IMG/VR virus record: IMGVR_UViG_3300014933_000005
Span: 1-22,590 of that record
DNA from: a virus
DNA: 22,590 bases
Direction: 5' to 3' (one strand)
Shown: piece after piece, positions 2,213 to 15,884 of the stretch
How positions within the stretch are numbered: position 1 is the first letter of the stretch
How the letters are laid out: each line of letters opens with the position of its first letter
The notes under the pieces: generated by a model
Seen by the model: only the letters and a program-made list of their open reading frames with translations
Told to the model about the DNA's origin: nothing
Databases searched by the model: none
Position numbers and translations under genes: made by a program

Positions 2213-3610
2213 ATGGGAATGTTTGATATTTTCAAGGGCAAAAAAGGCCCATCTGAAAGCAACACATTATTCGGCCAAACAGCCTTGGGTAACAACATTG
2301 TCTTTCAAGGCAATAATAAAGTCCCGAATGTAAACACTCAGATTCTGTACGTCACCACTGCCAGCACAACCAATGCTGGCCGTCCGGTCGATATGTCTGT
2401 GCTGACACGAAACAGCACAATCATGTCTTGTATTGGAGTTAAAGCCCGTGCTTTGGCTCAACTCAAAATCAACATCATGTGCGAGATGGATGATGGCAAA
2501 TATGAAAATGCCGTCACAGGAACTGGTGTTGGTGCGCGAGATAAAGCCAAAGCCAAGCAAGTTGCCAAGTTATTGGCAAGCCCAAATAACTTTCAGAGCA
2601 AATATGAGTTCTGGTATCAGTGGTTGATGTGGTTGGAGCTTTCTGGCGAAGCCTTTACCTTGTGGTGGAGGAAAGACCAGAACAATTCAATGGAAACCCC
2701 ATTGGAGATGTACATCATGGACAGCACACTGATTGCTGTGACCATTACGCCGACCCGCTACCCATCGTATCGCTTGTCCACTCCAAGCTACGGTTTTTCG
2801 CGTGATGAGCCACTGAAGTCGCACCAAATCATGCACGTTAAAGAAGCTGCGTGGCAAGGTTCTGCCGGTTTCAACAAAGGCATCTTGGCGACTGAGTTAG
2901 TGGCTCTTGACCAAGACATTGACCTGTACGCAAACTACGTTATGCAGAATGGCGCGAAGCCATCTGGCATGTTCACGACTGATGCGGTCATTCCTGATGG
3001 CAAGTTCAAGGAAATTGCAGCCCGTTTGAAAGAGACTTGGAACAATATGACTGGCTCTCGCCAAGCAGACCCATCCAAGCCCGGACAGTCGATGCTGCTT
3101 GACCAAGGCATGAAGTACACGCCGCTGACCATGCTTACCTTGCAAGATGCTGACGCTGCTGCTCTAAAAGAGCAAACCATGAAGCGAATTTGCGGTTTGT
3201 TTGGTGTGCCTCCAAGCATGATTGGAATCCATGACCAGAAGTACAACAATACTCAGACCGTGGTGGACGAGTTTTACAAAACCGCCATGTATCCAATGAT
3301 TGTGAATATCCAAGAGAAACTGCAACAGCATTTACTCCAAGGTTATCCATCTCTGAAGGTTGAGTTTGACACCAAGGACTTTTTGAAGGGCGCTCCCTTA
3401 GACCAAATGAACTTTGCTGTTCAAGGTGTGTCGAATGGCATCTTGACTCCAAACGAAGCGCGTGAATATCTTGGCCGTGCCAATATCGAAGGCGGTGATG
3501 AATTGGTTAAGGATGCAAAAGCAGCCGACCCAATCACCGGAACATCGCCTCAAGATACTGGTGGCGGTGGCGGTAGTCAGAAGCGCAAAATGAATATCGG
3601 CAAGACCTGA
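2213..3610 (+). CDS. Portal protein (HK97 family)
   Basis: 465 residues. It forms the dodecameric ring at one capsid vertex through which DNA is packaged and to which the connector attaches. The sequence has the usual features of the HK97 portal family: a short basic N-terminus (MGMFDIFKGKKG), a central conserved block around 'DLYANYVMQNGAKPSG' (near residues 235-250), and a 'FGVPPSMIG' segment near residue 330. The C-terminus is a Gly-rich, basic, probably flexible tail (GGGGGSQKRK). AGGAGTG sits 6-11 bases before the ATG. It lies between the large terminase and the prohead protease, as expected. The downstream 137-base gap is the first real intergenic region in the window. Confidence 0.93.
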   Translation: MGMFDIFKGKKGPSESNTLFGQTALGNNIVFQGNNKVPNVNTQILYVTTASTTNAGRPVDMSVLTRNSTIMSCIGVKARALAQLKINIMCEMDDGKYENAVTGTGVGARDKAKAKQVAKLLASPNNFQSKYEFWYQWLMWLELSGEAFTLWWRKDQNNSMETPLEMYIMDSTLIAVTITPTRYPSYRLSTPSYGFSRDEPLKSHQIMHVKEAAWQGSAGFNKGILATELVALDQDIDLYANYVMQNGAKPSGMFTTDAVIPDGKFKEIAARLKETWNNMTGSRQADPSKPGQSMLLDQGMKYTPLTMLTLQDADAAALKEQTMKRICGLFGVPPSMIGIHDQKYNNTQTVVDEFYKTAMYPMIVNIQEKLQQHLLQGYPSLKVEFDTKDFLKGAPLDQMNFAVQGVSNGILTPNEAREYLGRANIEGGDELVKDAKAADPITGTSPQDTGGGGGSQKRKMNIGKT

Positions 3611-3747: not shown

Positions 3748-4548
3748 ATGAAACAAATCCATCTAGTCTGCGAAGCCAAGCTCAACCTGACAGAAAAGTC
3801 TGCCAACGGGGAGCCGACTGGCAAGATTGAAGCCCGTATTACCACTTGGGGCGCTCGGGAAGGCGCTGATGGCCGTAAGTTCTTCTACACACCAGAAGGA
3901 TTTATGGATTGGGCTGGCGAATTTGCTGAATCTGGCCGACCACTTCCAATGTTCGTTAATCACAATGCTGATGCTGTTCCCGTTGGTGAATGGACTCAGT
4001 TTGAAATGGACGAAACTGGCATGAACGCCACTGGCCGCTTGTATCTCAATACAACTCAAGGCTCCGACCTATATCAAGTAATGTGCGAATCTCCATCCAT
4101 GTTTGGTGGAGTTTCTGTTGGCGCATTTGCTGAAGAATATCAGTGGGTCAAAGAAGATGGCACTCCATTCACAATGAGTTCCGCTGATTCAATGGATGAA
4201 GGTTATTTCCAGATTACCAAAGGTGGTCTGCATGAAACAAGTATTGTTATGTACCCAAACAACCCCGCAGCAGAAGTCAAGAAGCTGGAATACTTCCGTC
4301 CAGATGGCTCTGCTGATTTAAAAGTATTGGAAGAAGCCTTGCGGGATGCAGGTCTGTCCAAGCAGATGTCGGTTGCCGCCGCATCTGTATTCAAGTCGGT
4401 CATTGAGCAGCGTGATGCTGTGAAAGAGCCGATTGAAAGTGCGCCAAGTCAGAGCGATTCTGATGCGGAGGCAACCGAAGCGAAGATTCTCGCGGCTCTT
4501 GAGCAACGTGAACTTCTTAAACTCCTTGACACTCGCCTTAAAGGTTAA
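3748..4548 (+). CDS. Prohead protease (HK97 type, S78-like)
   Basis: 266-residue head maturation protease. It is built into the prohead, where it removes the delta domain of the major capsid protein and then itself. The expected signatures are present: a conserved FVNHN with candidate catalytic His72, followed by 'G.W......D..G......' and then FGGVSVGA with candidate nucleophile Ser123. Next comes 'LHETSIV..PNNPAA', a typical family close to the protease domain. The last 80 residues are low in conservation, acidic and helical (SDSDAEATEAKILAALEQRE), as in family members with a scaffold-like tail. The ATG at 3748 has AGGGG upstream. MCP1 starts two bases after the stop, and its delta-type domain is the likely substrate. 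Confidence 0.9.
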   Translation: MKQIHLVCEAKLNLTEKSANGEPTGKIEARITTWGAREGADGRKFFYTPEGFMDWAGEFAESGRPLPMFVNHNADAVPVGEWTQFEMDETGMNATGRLYLNTTQGSDLYQVMCESPSMFGGVSVGAFAEEYQWVKEDGTPFTMSSADSMDEGYFQITKGGLHETSIVMYPNNPAAEVKKLEYFRPDGSADLKVLEEALRDAGLSKQMSVAAASVFKSVIEQRDAVKEPIESAPSQSDSDAEATEAKILAALEQRELLKLLDTRLKG

Positions 4549-4550
4549 TC

Positions 4551-5894
4551 ATGTCTGACAAAATCATTGAAAAACTGGACTCTATCGAGTCTAAACAAGC
4601 TGAAGCAATTTCTGCTGTTGAAGCAAAAATCCCTGCTGCTGTTGAAGCTGTTAAAGCTGAAATGCAAGAGATGGTTTCTGCTTTGGAAGCAAAAGTTGCC
4701 TCCATTCAGATGCCTGAGTTCATCAAAGCTCCAGCTAAGACTGTGCGCGGCGATGTGAACCGTTCCGTCAAAGAACAACTGGCTACGTTCCACAAGAACG
4801 GCGGTCGTGTTGAGACTGAACTGAAAATGTTTGCTGACGAAAGCCAGTACGAAGCCTACATGAAAGAAGCCTCGGCTCTGACTGCTGGTGGTGACGGTAA
4901 AGGTGGTCGTACCGCTTATGACCCAGTGTTTGCTGCTCTGCGTTTGGCCAACCCCATGCGCGGTCTGTCTCGCACTGTTGCTACTGATGGCTCTAGCTAT
5001 CAGTTCCGTGTGAAGACTGGCAATGCTGGTGCAACTTGGGGCTACCCAATCCAGAACAACGGTTCGCCTACAACTGAAAACACAAGCATCTGGCAATTGG
5101 TTTTGCAAGATGTGAACACTCAGTTCCCTATCCGTACCGCTGCTTTGGACGACATTGATGGTCTGGAAGCCAACGTGGTTGATGACATGCTGATGGAATT
5201 CGCTCAAGTCGAAGCCCAATCCATGATTCAAAACAACGACCAAACCGACACGCCTAACACCTACGGTGGTACTGCTGGTTTGCGTGGTCTTGACCAGTAC
5301 GCTGGCGCTAACAGCACCTACGCTGGTGGCACTTGCTCTGTGGCTGCTTTTGGCTCGTCTGGTACTGGTTCTACCAGTGGTCTGCACAGCTTGGCAACTT
5401 ATGACCAGTTGACTTCCAACGCCAACACTGTCGGTGCTGCAAACATCACCTACAAAGACGTTGTGAACTTCATCTATCAGTTGCCACAACAGTACTGGAC
5501 TGCAAACGCTAAGTTCATGATTAACCCAATTTTGCTGTCGCAGATTCGTGGTTTGACTGACAGCAACGGCACTCCTGTGTTTGAGCGTATGTCGCCTCTG
5601 GAAACTGACGGTATTGTTGGTCGTCTGTTGGGCTTTGATGTTGTCGTGAACAAGTATGTGGACAACCCATCCCAAGCTACAACTGGCTCTGCTGGCACTT
5701 CTAGCCTGTACCCAATGTACTTTGGTGACTTCACTCGCGGCCACACCATCATTGACCGTTTGAACATGGTCATGCGCCGCTACGACCAGACATTGCCCGG
5801 TTACATCACCTTCTTTGGTGAGAAGCGTTTGGCAACATCGGTTCGCGACCCTAACGCCTTGGTGCGCTACCGGAGCACCGGGACAGCAACGTAA
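4551..5894 (+). CDS. Major capsid protein 1, full length with delta domain
   Basis: 447-residue HK97-fold capsid subunit. Residues 1-60 are an Ala/Glu/Lys-rich heptad-like coiled coil (AVEAKIPAAVEAVKAEMQE), matching the N-terminal delta/scaffold domain that is cleaved after assembly in HK97. A cleavage point near residues 105-110 is inferred from the length of the delta domain and from where homology to MCP2 begins (EASALT). The mature part starts with GGRTAYDPVFAALRLANP and contains 'DGSSYQF..KTGNA', 'FPIRTAALDDI', an 'LRGLDQ' segment, 'LLGFDVVVNKYVDN' and a C-terminal 'PGYITFFGEKRLATSVRDP'. It lies directly downstream of the protease and ends just before an intrinsic terminator. A second capsid-like gene follows at 6537. 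Confidence 0.95.
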   Translation: MSDKIIEKLDSIESKQAEAISAVEAKIPAAVEAVKAEMQEMVSALEAKVASIQMPEFIKAPAKTVRGDVNRSVKEQLATFHKNGGRVETELKMFADESQYEAYMKEASALTAGGDGKGGRTAYDPVFAALRLANPMRGLSRTVATDGSSYQFRVKTGNAGATWGYPIQNNGSPTTENTSIWQLVLQDVNTQFPIRTAALDDIDGLEANVVDDMLMEFAQVEAQSMIQNNDQTDTPNTYGGTAGLRGLDQYAGANSTYAGGTCSVAAFGSSGTGSTSGLHSLATYDQLTSNANTVGAANITYKDVVNFIYQLPQQYWTANAKFMINPILLSQIRGLTDSNGTPVFERMSPLETDGIVGRLLGFDVVVNKYVDNPSQATTGSAGTSSLYPMYFGDFTRGHTIIDRLNMVMRRYDQTLPGYITFFGEKRLATSVRDPNALVRYRSTGTAT

Positions 5895-5900
5895 AGCTGG

Positions 5901-5928
5901 AAGGGGGAGCTTGCCTCCCCCTTTTGTT
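5901..5928 (+). terminator. Strong intrinsic terminator after MCP1
   Basis: A perfect 9-bp stem, AAGGGGGAG (5901-5909) with CTCCCCCTT (5915-5923), has a 5-base loop and runs into TTTTGTT (5922-5928). The stem begins six bases after the MCP1 stop codon. The opposite strand has no T-run after the stem, so it acts only on rightward transcription. The next gene's ATG starts immediately after the T-run. Confidence 0.9.
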
Positions 5929-6528
5929 ATGTTTTACACATACATTCATTTCAAATCTGATACCCATGAACCCTTCTACATTGGAAAGGGTCAAGGGAAT
6001 CGTTATCTTGTAAAGACAAAGCGAAACAACTACTGGAACAATGTTGTTTGCAAGCACGGCTTTACTTCTGAAATTTTATGTAGGTGGAATACAGAACAAG
6101 AAGCATTGGAGCATGAGAAATTCTTGATTCAATGCTTTAAAGATGTTGGCGCTGATTTGGTTAATTTGACTGATGGCGGCGAAGGAACTTCTGGATGGAT
6201 TCCCTCTGATTCTTGGAGGGCTAAAAAAAGTGCTTCACAAAAAGCCAACTTTGTAAATCCTATGTTTAATCAAGCATCTGCTGAAAAAAGAAAAAACACA
6301 ATAACAGGTAGGACTTTATCTGAGTCTCACAAAGCAAACATTGGGTTGGGTTCTATTGGAAATAAAAGTCGCTTAGGCTTGAAAAACACAATAGAATCAA
6401 ACTTGAAAAGATCAGATAATTTGCGCGGAAACAAGCATTGTCTTGGGATTGTGCAAAAACCAGAGTCTAATAAAAAAAGATCAGAATCTTTGAAAGCGTA
6501 TTGGGCGCTTAAAAAGTCATTAATTTAG
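5929..6528 (+). CDS. GIY-YIG homing endonuclease with NUMOD3 repeats
   Basis: 199-residue free-standing homing endonuclease. The N-terminal GIY-YIG nuclease shows YTYI (residues 3-6), FYIGKG (16-21), Arg25, a Glu in EALEHEKF (58-65) and VNLTDGGEG with Asn79, the set of catalytic positions expected for the family. The C-terminal half is basic and contains NUMOD3-like DNA-binding motifs such as GRTLSESHKANIG (127-139) and LGIVQKPESNKKRSESLKA (172-190). The gene is visibly richer in A/T and in AAA/AAT codons than the flanking capsid genes, a sign of separate origin. The ATG directly follows the terminator T-run and has no free Shine-Dalgarno: the only G-rich stretch, GGGGGAG, is 20 bases upstream in the hairpin. 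Expression is therefore probably low. It sits between two paralogous capsid genes. Confidence 0.9.
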   Translation: MFYTYIHFKSDTHEPFYIGKGQGNRYLVKTKRNNYWNNVVCKHGFTSEILCRWNTEQEALEHEKFLIQCFKDVGADLVNLTDGGEGTSGWIPSDSWRAKKSASQKANFVNPMFNQASAEKRKNTITGRTLSESHKANIGLGSIGNKSRLGLKNTIESNLKRSDNLRGNKHCLGIVQKPESNKKRSESLKAYWALKKSLI

Positions 6529-6536
6529 GAACTGAT

Positions 6537-7577
6537 ATGACCATTACCAAAAGAATCCTGACGGGCATTAAAGAAACACTTGAGACTGGCGCAAAGGTCA
6601 CGATTGACTTGCGTGAAGCGTCTGCAATCACAGGCTCTGGTGACGGGGTTGGTGGTCGTACATATTTTGATGATGCGTTCGCCGCACTGCGCTATGCAAA
6701 CCCATTTAGGCAGTTTGCTCGCGTGATGAAGGTTGACGGGTCATCTGTGCAGTTCGTTGCCAAGACTGGTAACGCTACAAGCGCAAACCCTTGGGGTTAC
6801 ACATTCACCCCCAACAGCGGTTCTCCCAACACTGACACGACTATTTGGCAACTGCCAACTCGCGTCATTACTGCTCAGTTGCCAATCCGTACTGCGGTGC
6901 TGACTGACGTAAATTACTTGAACGAAACTTTGGTCGATGATCTTGCCTTGGAATTTGCCGCTGTTGAAGGCGCATCCATGGGCTTGAATGACGACCAAGC
7001 TGGAAGCACAACCACAAGCACTGGCGCAACCAATGGCTTGCGTGGCTTGAATAGCTACCCCGGCGCTGCTGGCGCATCGGCTGCTTACGGTACAAGCGGA
7101 ACGGCAATCACCAACGGTCTGCATACCATTGCCACTGTTGGTCACGCAGCAACTGCTGTTGACTTAGAGTCATTGCAAGCTATGGCTGGCGCATTGCCCG
7201 GACAATACTGGAACCTTCCCGGTACTGCATGGCAAATGCACCCCACCTACATTACCGCAATTCGCGCCTATGCCCATAACGGCGGCACAGGCCCCTATTC
7301 GCTGGTTGAAACTGGTGAAATGGGCGAAGGGCCAGCGGTCAACATTTTGGGCTTCCCTGTCATTCCCAACCCTTACCTTGACCCGCACGGTACGGCTGGC
7401 AACATCCCAGTGTATCTTGCCAACTGGCCCCGTTTCTTGAGCATCATGGATGTTGAGGAAATGACTATTCAAGCGATGGAACAAACAAGCCCCGGTTTTG
7501 TTACTCTGTACGCTGAAAAGCGCATGGTGAGTTCCGTGCGCGATGTGTTTGCTGGCGTTCGTCTGATTGAGACTTAA
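6537..7577 (+). CDS. Major capsid protein 2, paralogue lacking delta domain
   Basis: 346-residue HK97-fold protein, homologous to MCP1 along its whole mature length. Shared blocks include EASAIT, GDG.GGRT, FAALR.ANP, DGSS.QF..KTGNA, PIRTA.L.D, GLRGL, a 'LGF.V..N.Y.D' segment and PG..T...EKR..SSVRD near the C-terminus. Residue 27 here aligns with residue 106 of MCP1, so about 80 residues of coiled-coil/delta domain are absent and replaced by a short basic N-terminus. It could be a vertex-type or minor capsid subunit, an alternative main subunit, or a decaying duplicate. An intact frame and conserved core argue against decay. AGGAA overlaps the stop codon of the endonuclease gene, so its translation may be coupled. 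The connector gene begins two bases after its stop. Confidence 0.88.
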   Translation: MTITKRILTGIKETLETGAKVTIDLREASAITGSGDGVGGRTYFDDAFAALRYANPFRQFARVMKVDGSSVQFVAKTGNATSANPWGYTFTPNSGSPNTDTTIWQLPTRVITAQLPIRTAVLTDVNYLNETLVDDLALEFAAVEGASMGLNDDQAGSTTTSTGATNGLRGLNSYPGAAGASAAYGTSGTAITNGLHTIATVGHAATAVDLESLQAMAGALPGQYWNLPGTAWQMHPTYITAIRAYAHNGGTGPYSLVETGEMGEGPAVNILGFPVIPNPYLDPHGTAGNIPVYLANWPRFLSIMDVEEMTIQAMEQTSPGFVTLYAEKRMVSSVRDVFAGVRLIET

Positions 7578-9046: not shown

Positions 9047-9541
9047 ATGGCTCTCCCAAACAAAGTCTTACCCGGTTTTAGCGCAGCACTCTACTGCCAA
9101 CCAAGTGCTTCTCCAACTGCTTTGACCACTTCCCAGTTGTCAACGCTGGCTAGTGTCGCCGCAATTGCCGTGTCCGGTAACTTGCTGCCTGTCGAAGCCA
9201 TCCCTGCTTTTGGTCAAGATGACGCTGTTGCATCTTTCACTGTTGCTGGTTCACGACAGTCTGACAAGATTCCTAGCCAGTCTGCTCCTACGAGCTTGAC
9301 AATTACCGCAGCTTGGAATCCATCTGACGCAAACCTGTTGTTGATGCGCGGTGATGCTTATTCTGGTGTTGTTGACCGTACTTTTGTGGTGTCTGCAACT
9401 GATGGCAGCAACATCGTTTATTACGCTTTTAACGCCCGTGTGAGCCAATTCCAAATTGACTCAGCCCCCGGCGCTGAAGCGAAATGTACCTTTACTGTTC
9501 ACCCTCGCGGTAACCAGTATGGTTGGTCTAACAACGCCTAA
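9047..9541 (+). CDS. Major tail tube protein, copy 1
   Basis: 164-residue predicted tail tube subunit. It follows the tail terminator and has a good TAAGGA site nine bases before the ATG. The sequence is beta-rich and Ala/Ser/Thr-rich, as usual for tube proteins. It opens with LPNKVLPGFSAALY and ends HPRGNQYGWSNNA. A central block (about residues 54-110) holds 'PAFGQDDAVASFTVAGSRQS', 'DKIPSQSAP' and 'AAWNPSDANLLL'. The next gene is a close paralogue. No recognised domain signature is visible to me, so the tube role rests on position, size, composition and the duplicated, highly conserved nature expected of an abundant structural protein. Confidence 0.75.
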   Translation: MALPNKVLPGFSAALYCQPSASPTALTTSQLSTLASVAAIAVSGNLLPVEAIPAFGQDDAVASFTVAGSRQSDKIPSQSAPTSLTITAAWNPSDANLLLMRGDAYSGVVDRTFVVSATDGSNIVYYAFNARVSQFQIDSAPGAEAKCTFTVHPRGNQYGWSNNA

Positions 9542-9551
9542 GGAGTAAATC

Positions 9552-10070
9552 ATGGCCGCACCAAACAAAATCCTACCCGGCTTTAGCGCATCCCTGTGGA
9601 TGCAATCTGGAGCCACTCCTACTGCGTTCACCACTGCAAACTTGTCCGTTTGGACTGGTCAAGTAGCAACAATTGTTGGCACTGCTGCAAACGGTACTGG
9701 CGCTTCTGGCGTTTTGCTGCCTGTTGAGACTGTTCCAGCTTTCGGCCAAGATGATGCCGTGGCATCGTTCACTGTCGCTGGTTCGCGTCAATCGGACAAA
9801 ATACCAAGTCAGTCTGCTCCCACAAGCATGACCATCACTGCCGCTTGGAATCCATCCGATGCCGCTTTGCTGTTGATTCGTGGCGATGCCGCTTCTGGCG
9901 TGATTGACCGCACTTTTGTGGTTGCCGCTGTTGATGGTGCTACCACCATTGCATACGCCTTCAATGGCCGTGTGAGTCAGTTCCAGATTGATGCTGCTCC
10001 CGGTGCTGAAGCCAAATGCACATTCACTGTTCACCCACGGGGCAACCAGTACGGCTGGTCGAACACATAA
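9552..10070 (+). CDS. Major tail tube protein, copy 2
   Basis: 172-residue tandem paralogue of the previous gene. N-terminus (PNKILPGFSA), central block and C-terminus (FTVHPRGNQYGWSN) are almost the same protein sequence, but the DNA differs at many third codon positions. The main length difference is extra residues near 38-56 (VGTAANGTGASG). AAGGAG precedes the ATG. The two could form a mixed tube, one could serve a specialised part of the tube, or one could carry a surface loop variant. Both frames are intact. The stop codon overlaps the next start (TAATG). Confidence 0.75.
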   Translation: MAAPNKILPGFSASLWMQSGATPTAFTTANLSVWTGQVATIVGTAANGTGASGVLLPVETVPAFGQDDAVASFTVAGSRQSDKIPSQSAPTSMTITAAWNPSDAALLLIRGDAASGVIDRTFVVAAVDGATTIAYAFNGRVSQFQIDAAPGAEAKCTFTVHPRGNQYGWSNT

Positions 10071-14806: not shown

Positions 14807-15441
14807 GTACAACAATGACCGCGCTGGATAGCTCGTCTATTCGGCAAGTTGAATTTATTAGGCTGACCATGCCTTCTAATACATATACGTTCTGCAACGC
14901 CGCAGCACCTATAACCGTCAACAGCATCACATTTAGCAACCTTGGCAGTTTGCTTCAGTTGGGCGACATCAAGAGCAACATCAAAGCAACAAGCTCTGAC
15001 TTGTCCATTTCATTGGCTGGCGTGGATGGAACAAACATTTCAATCGTTTTGAGTTCTGGTATTAAAGGCTCAAAAATTGAAGTGTGGCGTGGATTTCTTG
15101 ACTCCAACAATCAAATCATCACAACACCAACCCAACAGTTTTTCAAACGGTATCAGGGTATTGTCTCCAACTACTCCATCACAGAAGACTGGAATGAGGA
15201 GGCCCGAACTCGTGTTGCCACTGTTGGTTTGTCTTGTGCCTCGTTTCGGACAATCTTGGAAAACCGTGTTGGTGGACTTCGCACAACGCCAAACAGTTGG
15301 CAATCTCAATATCCCGGAGATACAAGCATGAATCGGGTACAGTCGATTGCTGGTGCTTACTTCAACTTTGGTAGCCCTGTGACTTCTTCTGTCAGTCAAT
15401 CAACATCAAGTACGCCATCACAAAAGACATTTGGACAATGA
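14803..15441 (+). CDS. Tail-tip hub protein in gpL position
   Basis: 212 residues. The pattern 'RQVEFIRLTMPSNTYTFCNA...ITVNSITFSNLGSLLQLGDI', followed by 'LSISLAGVDGTNISIVL', 'GSKIEVWRGFLDSNNQII' and 'FKRYQGIVSNYSITED', is what is seen in DUF2163/hub-like tail proteins, which bridge the tape-measure end to the central fibre. 'SCASFRTILENRVGGLRT' and a possibly disordered Ser/Thr-rich tail close it. Known hubs of this type may carry Cys-rich iron-sulphur sites (lambda gpL); only two clear Cys residues are seen here, so I do not claim one. Overlaps of four bases join it to genes on both sides. Confidence 0.65.
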   Translation: MSTTMTALDSSSIRQVEFIRLTMPSNTYTFCNAAAPITVNSITFSNLGSLLQLGDIKSNIKATSSDLSISLAGVDGTNISIVLSSGIKGSKIEVWRGFLDSNNQIITTPTQQFFKRYQGIVSNYSITEDWNEEARTRVATVGLSCASFRTILENRVGGLRTTPNSWQSQYPGDTSMNRVQSIAGAYFNFGSPVTSSVSQSTSSTPSQKTFGQ

Positions 15442-15884
15442 TAAGACACGCTACAAGACACGATATACCCGCGCTGGTATGGATGATGCGGGAATACGCA
15501 AAAGAGGCTCCTGTGCCTGTTTTGGCTAATCCTGATAACCACAATGAGGAACACGTTGGCAACTTGATATTTCAGATGCTCAATGGGCGCGGATTTATTC
15601 TGATTGACGATGACCACCGGGGCATGATTTGCGCCATCATTACAAGCAATGTTTGGAGTCCACGGGTTCTGGAGTTGCGTGAGTTGGCTTGGTGGGTAAT
15701 GCCAGCGCATCGCGGAAAGTCAATTGGCGGCAGACTTTGGGTAAAGTTTGACGAAATAGCACAAGATATGCTGAACACAGGCCGAGTTGATTTTGTCTGC
15801 ACAACAGTGATGGCAAACTCGCCTTTGATAGACTACACCAAGCGCGGATATAAACCGCTTGAAGCCACATTCTTTAGGGACTAA
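15438..15884 (+). CDS. GNAT-family N-acetyltransferase inside the tail-tip operon
   Basis: 148-residue protein with the GNAT layout: 'MIRHATRHDIPALVWMMREYA' as beta1-alpha1, a 'RGFILIDDDHRGMICAI' beta2-beta3 hairpin, 'LELRELAWWVMPAHRGKSIG' containing beta4 and the acetyl-CoA pyrophosphate loop (HRGKSIGG, residues 91-98), and a closing 'DYTKRGYKPLEATF' with Tyr138 near the usual general-acid position. It should transfer an acetyl group from acetyl-CoA, but the substrate is unknown: it may be a virion protein or a host molecule. It sits exactly where lambda has gpK (NlpC/P60 peptidase), joined by a four-base overlap to the hub gene and two bases from the J gene. Confidence 0.85.
   Translation: MIRHATRHDIPALVWMMREYAKEAPVPVLANPDNHNEEHVGNLIFQMLNGRGFILIDDDHRGMICAIITSNVWSPRVLELRELAWWVMPAHRGKSIGGRLWVKFDEIAQDMLNTGRVDFVCTTVMANSPLIDYTKRGYKPLEATFFRD

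Follow-up and report, generated by a model that had tools for sequence, protein, structure and literature searches.

In most tailed phages, one protein builds both the five-fold and the six-fold capsomers of the head. HK97, for instance, has a single capsid gene and carries a delta domain on every subunit, and all capsomers of RcGTA are likewise formed from one capsid protein. T4 is the textbook exception. In this phage the pentamers consist of gp24, and the removable N-terminal peptide is 65 amino acids long in gp23 but only 10 amino acids long in gp24 (PMC9958956). Here we describe a locus in a 22,590-nucleotide stretch of viral DNA (IMG/VR record IMGVR_UViG_3300014933_000005), referred to below as the window, in which, as in T4, two HK97-fold paralogues follow in succession behind a protease gene and both duplicates are retained. 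The window is part of a tailed-phage genome with the gene order terminase, portal, S78-type protease, MCP1, MCP2, connector, and tail genes. The features of its head module are as follows:

2213..3610, + strand: portal protein (Pfam PF04860, 3e-60)
3748..4548, + strand: S78-type prohead protease, just 5' of MCP1 (Pfam PF04586, 1e-7; phrog_3244, 2e-12)
4551..5894, + strand: MCP1, HK97-fold major capsid protein of 447 amino acids with an N-terminal scaffold (delta-type) domain (PF05065; AlphaFold/Foldseek)
4551..4865, + strand: N-terminal helical region of MCP1, residues 1-105, absent from MCP2 (alignments and model)
5898..5926, + strand: intrinsic-terminator-like hairpin directly 3' of MCP1 (sequence; equivalents in relatives)
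5929..6528, + strand: putative GIY-YIG-type homing endonuclease of 199 amino acids inside the MCP1-MCP2 gap (phrog_314, 3e-15; motif YTY...FYIGKG)
6526..6536, + strand: ribosome-binding region of MCP2, TAGGAACTGAT (sequence; relatives have comparable TAGGA/TTGGA sites)
6537..7577, + strand: MCP2, second HK97-fold capsid protein, 346 amino acids, without a scaffold domain (PF05065; model)
6537..6617, + strand: short N-terminal tail of MCP2, residues 1-27, before the (K/R)EAS motif, with one short helix

MCP1 and MCP2 are HK97-fold capsid paralogues. They are identical at 135 of 346 positions (39%; BLASTP E = 1e-63), and both belong to PF05065 (Phage_capsid) by profile score (111.7 bits, 5e-32, for MCP1 and 61.6 bits, 1e-16, for MCP2; curated cutoff, 24.2 bits) as well as by predicted fold. 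The AlphaFold models, which are of moderate confidence (pLDDT 68 for MCP1 and 72 for MCP2), point to the RcGTA capsid protein (Rcc01687, PDB 6tb9) as the nearest solved structure by fold for both proteins (Foldseek E values of 8e-20, the best match of MCP1, and 1e-15 for MCP2), and this protein is nearest to MCP1 by sequence profile too (E 3e-9). An earlier note on this DNA had described two paralogous HK97-fold capsid genes with shared motif blocks in the same order. Its coordinates and lengths are right, the structure predictions that it proposed match HK97-fold capsids for each copy, and the motif order agrees apart from the last block, which reads EKRLATSVRD in MCP1 and EKRMVSSVRD in MCP2, so that the EKR..SSVRD given there needs a small correction. 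The note missed that, measured against the fold, the start of MCP2 lies approximately 80 residues further in and that the two genes are not adjacent in the window, being 642 nt apart with the hairpin and the endonuclease between them.

Ahead of its capsid core, MCP1 has approximately 105 N-terminal residues with long helices predicted at residues 2 to 51 and 65 to 82, and it thereby resembles HK97 gp5 both in fold and in having a fused N-terminal helical delta-type domain. Unlike in HK97, this domain is missing from MCP2, in which approximately 27 residues with one short helix precede a core that retains the full HK97 fold in the predicted model. The locus thus departs from the single-capsid-protein head of the HK97/RcGTA type, as the scaffold-less second paralogue is found in every relative examined. 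In T4, too, the removable N-terminal region is much shorter in the second protein, gp24, as the putative one is in MCP2; however, the scaffold of T4 is a protein of its own, gp22, whereas the scaffold is fused here to MCP1 only. A conserved (K/R)EAS(A/G)(L/I)T-G motif marks the boundary between tail and core in both proteins and, by analogy with HK97-type maturation, is the likely cleavage region of the prohead protease. The core alignment has 68 columns in which the two families agree in residue and conservation reaches 90% or more. The differences between the families include indels and the A-domain, where the motif IRGL.D..G.P is conserved in MCP1, matching RcGTA, and is degenerate in MCP2. 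Since the T4 mutations that let gp23 take the place of gp24 at the vertices include A-domain positions (PMC9958956), this domain is a sensible site of specialization. T4 gp23 and gp24 match only PF07068 (Gp23), whereas MCP1 and MCP2 match only PF05065, and the two duplications therefore look independent; by analogy, MCP1 and MCP2 may work like gp23 and gp24 and yet stand outside that family.

The pair belongs to a large siphophage group, mostly from fresh water and related to the Methylophilaceae phage P19250A (KX815270), with genomes of about 35 to 40 kb, compared to the 169-kb genome and prolate head of T4. Most of the related loci (L003 to L469) came from IMG/VR queries with MCP2, an MCP2 alignment, an MCP1 alignment, and divergent MCP1s and MCP2s. 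The search for other phages with both genes, which the earlier note had suggested, found MCP1 and MCP2 together in every fetched locus long enough to show both, 443 in total (245 of 255, 48 of 56, and 150 of 152 in three locus sets); the 20 loci without both genes all end inside the region. As some loci derive from one contig, identical protein pairs were dropped; the first sets then comprised 187 distinct complete pairs, with pairwise identities down to 55% for MCP1 and 47% for MCP2. Queries with MCP1 only, divergent MCP1s included, also returned loci with both genes, and within the reach of these pattern-based scans, no relative with MCP1 but without MCP2 was found, the most divergent MCP1 queries included. 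The pair was also present in three metagenome bins. Among sequenced phages, the sole good match was P19250A, whose isolate genome carries both genes, MCP2 being annotated there as "hypothetical." Venkman, reported to be close to P19250A (PMC8163748), was not among the matches in this search. The head module of P19250A shares the protease, MCP1 (60% identical), the hairpin, and MCP2 (55% identical) with the window but differs in that its gap holds no endonuclease. Chance pairing in one contig and an assembly artifact are ruled out by the 443 loci and the finished P19250A genome. A scan of bacterial genomes for tandem PF05065 genes listed just one of the two copies that its positive-control genome is known to have, and the rarity of such tandems in bacterial genomes is therefore unusable as evidence. 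A literature search with few subscription journals in its reach turned up no account of two HK97-type capsid genes in the P19250A-related group. In three loci, a capsid gene is broken in two (MCP2 in L231 and L237 and MCP1 in L392), perhaps through assembly errors or through genuine frameshifts.

A tree of 33 MCP1/MCP2 pairs and three outgroup capsids (Bcep176, ctuI7215, and phiPsal1) separates MCP1 from MCP2; MCP2 is monophyletic (support, 98/96), monophyly of MCP1 is weakly supported (56/83), and the MCP1/MCP2 labels need two changes, the smallest number possible. The pair goes back to one duplication that is older than the radiation of the group. That MCP1 has the ancestral form is read from domain architecture and not from the tree, since the outgroup branches are very long. 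Median pairwise dN/dS over 659 pairs was 0.139 for MCP1 and 0.138 for MCP2, and with medians this equal, purifying selection acts on MCP2 as strongly as on the main capsid gene; the distances of the two genes are correlated (r = 0.68). If MCP2 were a functionless, drifting relic of a recent duplication, its somewhat faster divergence (median p-distance of 0.38 versus 0.27 for MCP1) would be expected. However, its dN/dS is the same as that of MCP1, the duplication predates the group, loss was never found, and 187 distinct complete pairs stand against two frame-split MCP2 copies, so that we give this explanation next to no credence. The tree and dN/dS rule out a pseudogene or a recent duplicate, and pseudogene-like decay, which the earlier note had named as a point to look for, was not seen. 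Universal co-retention, one ancient duplication, equal purifying selection, and consistent architectural differences strongly support MCP1 and MCP2 as an old, functionally fixed capsid pair with a division of labor in general, and to this extent the proposal of the earlier note stands. On the specific roles that it offered, namely hexamer versus pentamer subunits or a mixed lattice, the evidence bears indirectly, through the absent scaffold domain, the hairpin, codon bias, and the parallel with T4.

Directly 3' of MCP1, the sequence forms a GC-rich hairpin with T residues behind it; in T4, a terminator-like hairpin with a T run comes after gene 23. Scored by one fixed rule, a hairpin follows MCP1 in 146 of 153 distinct sequences; none follows MCP2 (0/152) or precedes MCP1 (0/152), and the shuffled control gave 1 in 187. 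The more distant loci retrieved later showed the same distribution (88 of 97 after MCP1 and 0 of 87 after MCP2). Stem sequences are highly variable, and paired bases have changed on both sides, which indicates that the structure and not the letters is kept. We infer that the hairpin is an intrinsic terminator with partial read-through, which would lower the dose of MCP2 and the downstream genes relative to MCP1. Terminators after the capsid gene are also known in phages with a single capsid gene, such as T7, and the hairpin alone therefore does not single out MCP2.

The gap between the two genes measures 642 nt in the window and about 50 to 80 nt in all but five of the measured relatives. In the window it contains a putative endonuclease open reading frame (ORF) that follows the hairpin and ends in a stop codon overlapping the MCP2 ribosome-binding site. 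The ORF was recognized by its phrog_314 homing endonuclease match (3e-15) and by the motif YTY...FYIGKG read in the sequence, and it has no Pfam match at an E value of 0.1. A homologue occupies the same gap in locus L042, and in loci L343 to L346 the gap instead carries a small ORF in which an HNH-like motif can be read (L346:5342-5719). At least two invasions of the gap, one by the putative GIY-YIG endonuclease and one by the HNH-like ORF, parallel the presence of segD between T4 genes 23 and 24. T4 segD, a GIY-YIG endonuclease gene between capsid genes, lies on the opposite strand, and its similarity to the ORF of the window is marginal (E 6e-4). Endonucleases may settle at the same spot because conserved capsid genes are perhaps good homing targets. 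In L346, a strong hairpin (CTGGGGAGTC...GACTTCCCAG) lies within the 5' end of the HNH-like ORF and resembles terminators that have been reported within T4 mobE and segF (PMC2988022).

Codon bias, measured with length control in 125 loci, served as a proxy for dose. Its median was 0.229 for MCP1, 0.169 for MCP2, 0.131 to 0.141 for the tail tube, 0.122 for the portal, 0.117 for the protease, and 0.107 for the terminase; MCP1 exceeded MCP2 in 100 of the 125 loci, and MCP2 exceeded the portal in 108. In the window itself, MCP2 has a value of 0.091, below the tail-tube genes. The medians would fit a structural protein present in an intermediate number of copies, although the shared composition of the paralogues confounds the comparison. 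A structural-gene-like codon bias and a fixed place in the head operon also speak against MCP2 being something other than a regular shell subunit, that is, a protein with a transient role in assembly (decoy, chaperone-like, or capping) or with a role in the host cell that is absent from mature heads. The missing scaffold domain would suit such a protein, as would the fact that we found no report of MCP2 in virions and that its P19250A counterpart is listed as hypothetical; nevertheless, the intact HK97 core fold, a dN/dS equal to that of MCP1, and the (K/R)EAS motif that the two proteins share beside the predicted cleavage site make this role improbable.

The absent scaffold domain, the hairpin, and the codon bias fit MCP2 being a less abundant virion subunit that co-assembles with MCP1. 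Our best guess, with a probability of roughly 60%, is that MCP2 is a T4-style vertex pentamer protein, a reading based on architecture, the dose proxies, and the T4 precedent. A fixed two-subunit capsid, with MCP1 as the scaffold-bearing main subunit and MCP2 as a specialized and probably less abundant one, is well supported. In the full reading, MCP1 supplies the built-in N-terminal scaffold and would make the hexamers, and MCP2, born by duplication before the group diversified, then lost the scaffold domain. Translated from those transcripts that continue past the terminator behind MCP1, MCP2 would be produced at a lower level, would enter the procapsid via the common fold, and would most likely form the pentamers at the eleven nonportal vertices, as gp24 does in T4, with the prohead protease trimming both proteins at the common (K/R)EAS motif. 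Universal co-retention and the selection data would be accommodated equally well if MCP2 were a co-assembling subunit outside the pentamers, whether at some hexamer positions in a mixed lattice, in a portal-adjacent ring, or as a setter of head size. A codon bias close to that of the tail-tube genes would allow more than about 55 copies, and the region around the MCP2 E-loop is well conserved. However, the scaffold would be diluted if a scaffold-less protein were spread through the hexamers, the hairpin and codon bias point to a dose below that of MCP1, and the vertex role has a direct precedent in T4, whereas we know of none for mixed-lattice, portal-ring, or head-size roles of a second capsid paralogue; a nonpentamer subunit is in our view possible but rather unlikely.

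A broader proposition builds on the vertex reading: that abundant, little-described siphophages with small genomes independently evolved a T4-like two-subunit capsid, with the scaffold on the hexamer protein only, scaffold-less vertex pentamers, a terminator-set dose, and a gap repeatedly targeted by homing endonucleases. We consider the odds on this proposition to be even. If true, it would be a second, independent origin of vertex specialization, in a simple HK97/GTA-type phage of approximately 38 kb and fixed across hundreds of genomes, and it would imply that such specialization pays even when the head is neither large nor prolate. It would also provide a small natural system in which to study how a capsid protein gains or loses the ability to form pentamers and to ask if a fused scaffold is needed at the vertices. 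Since P19250A is a cultured member of the group, the question is testable now.

The tail tube is a second duplicated structural gene, although its presence varies among loci. In the window, two tail-tube (major tail protein) genes lie in tandem (9047-9541 and 9552-10070) and are 74% identical; two copies were found in 144 of the 250 loci with a match, and one was found in P19250A. Further downstream, a GNAT-family acetyltransferase gene (window positions 15438-15884; PF00583, 1e-5) lies amid the tail-tip genes.
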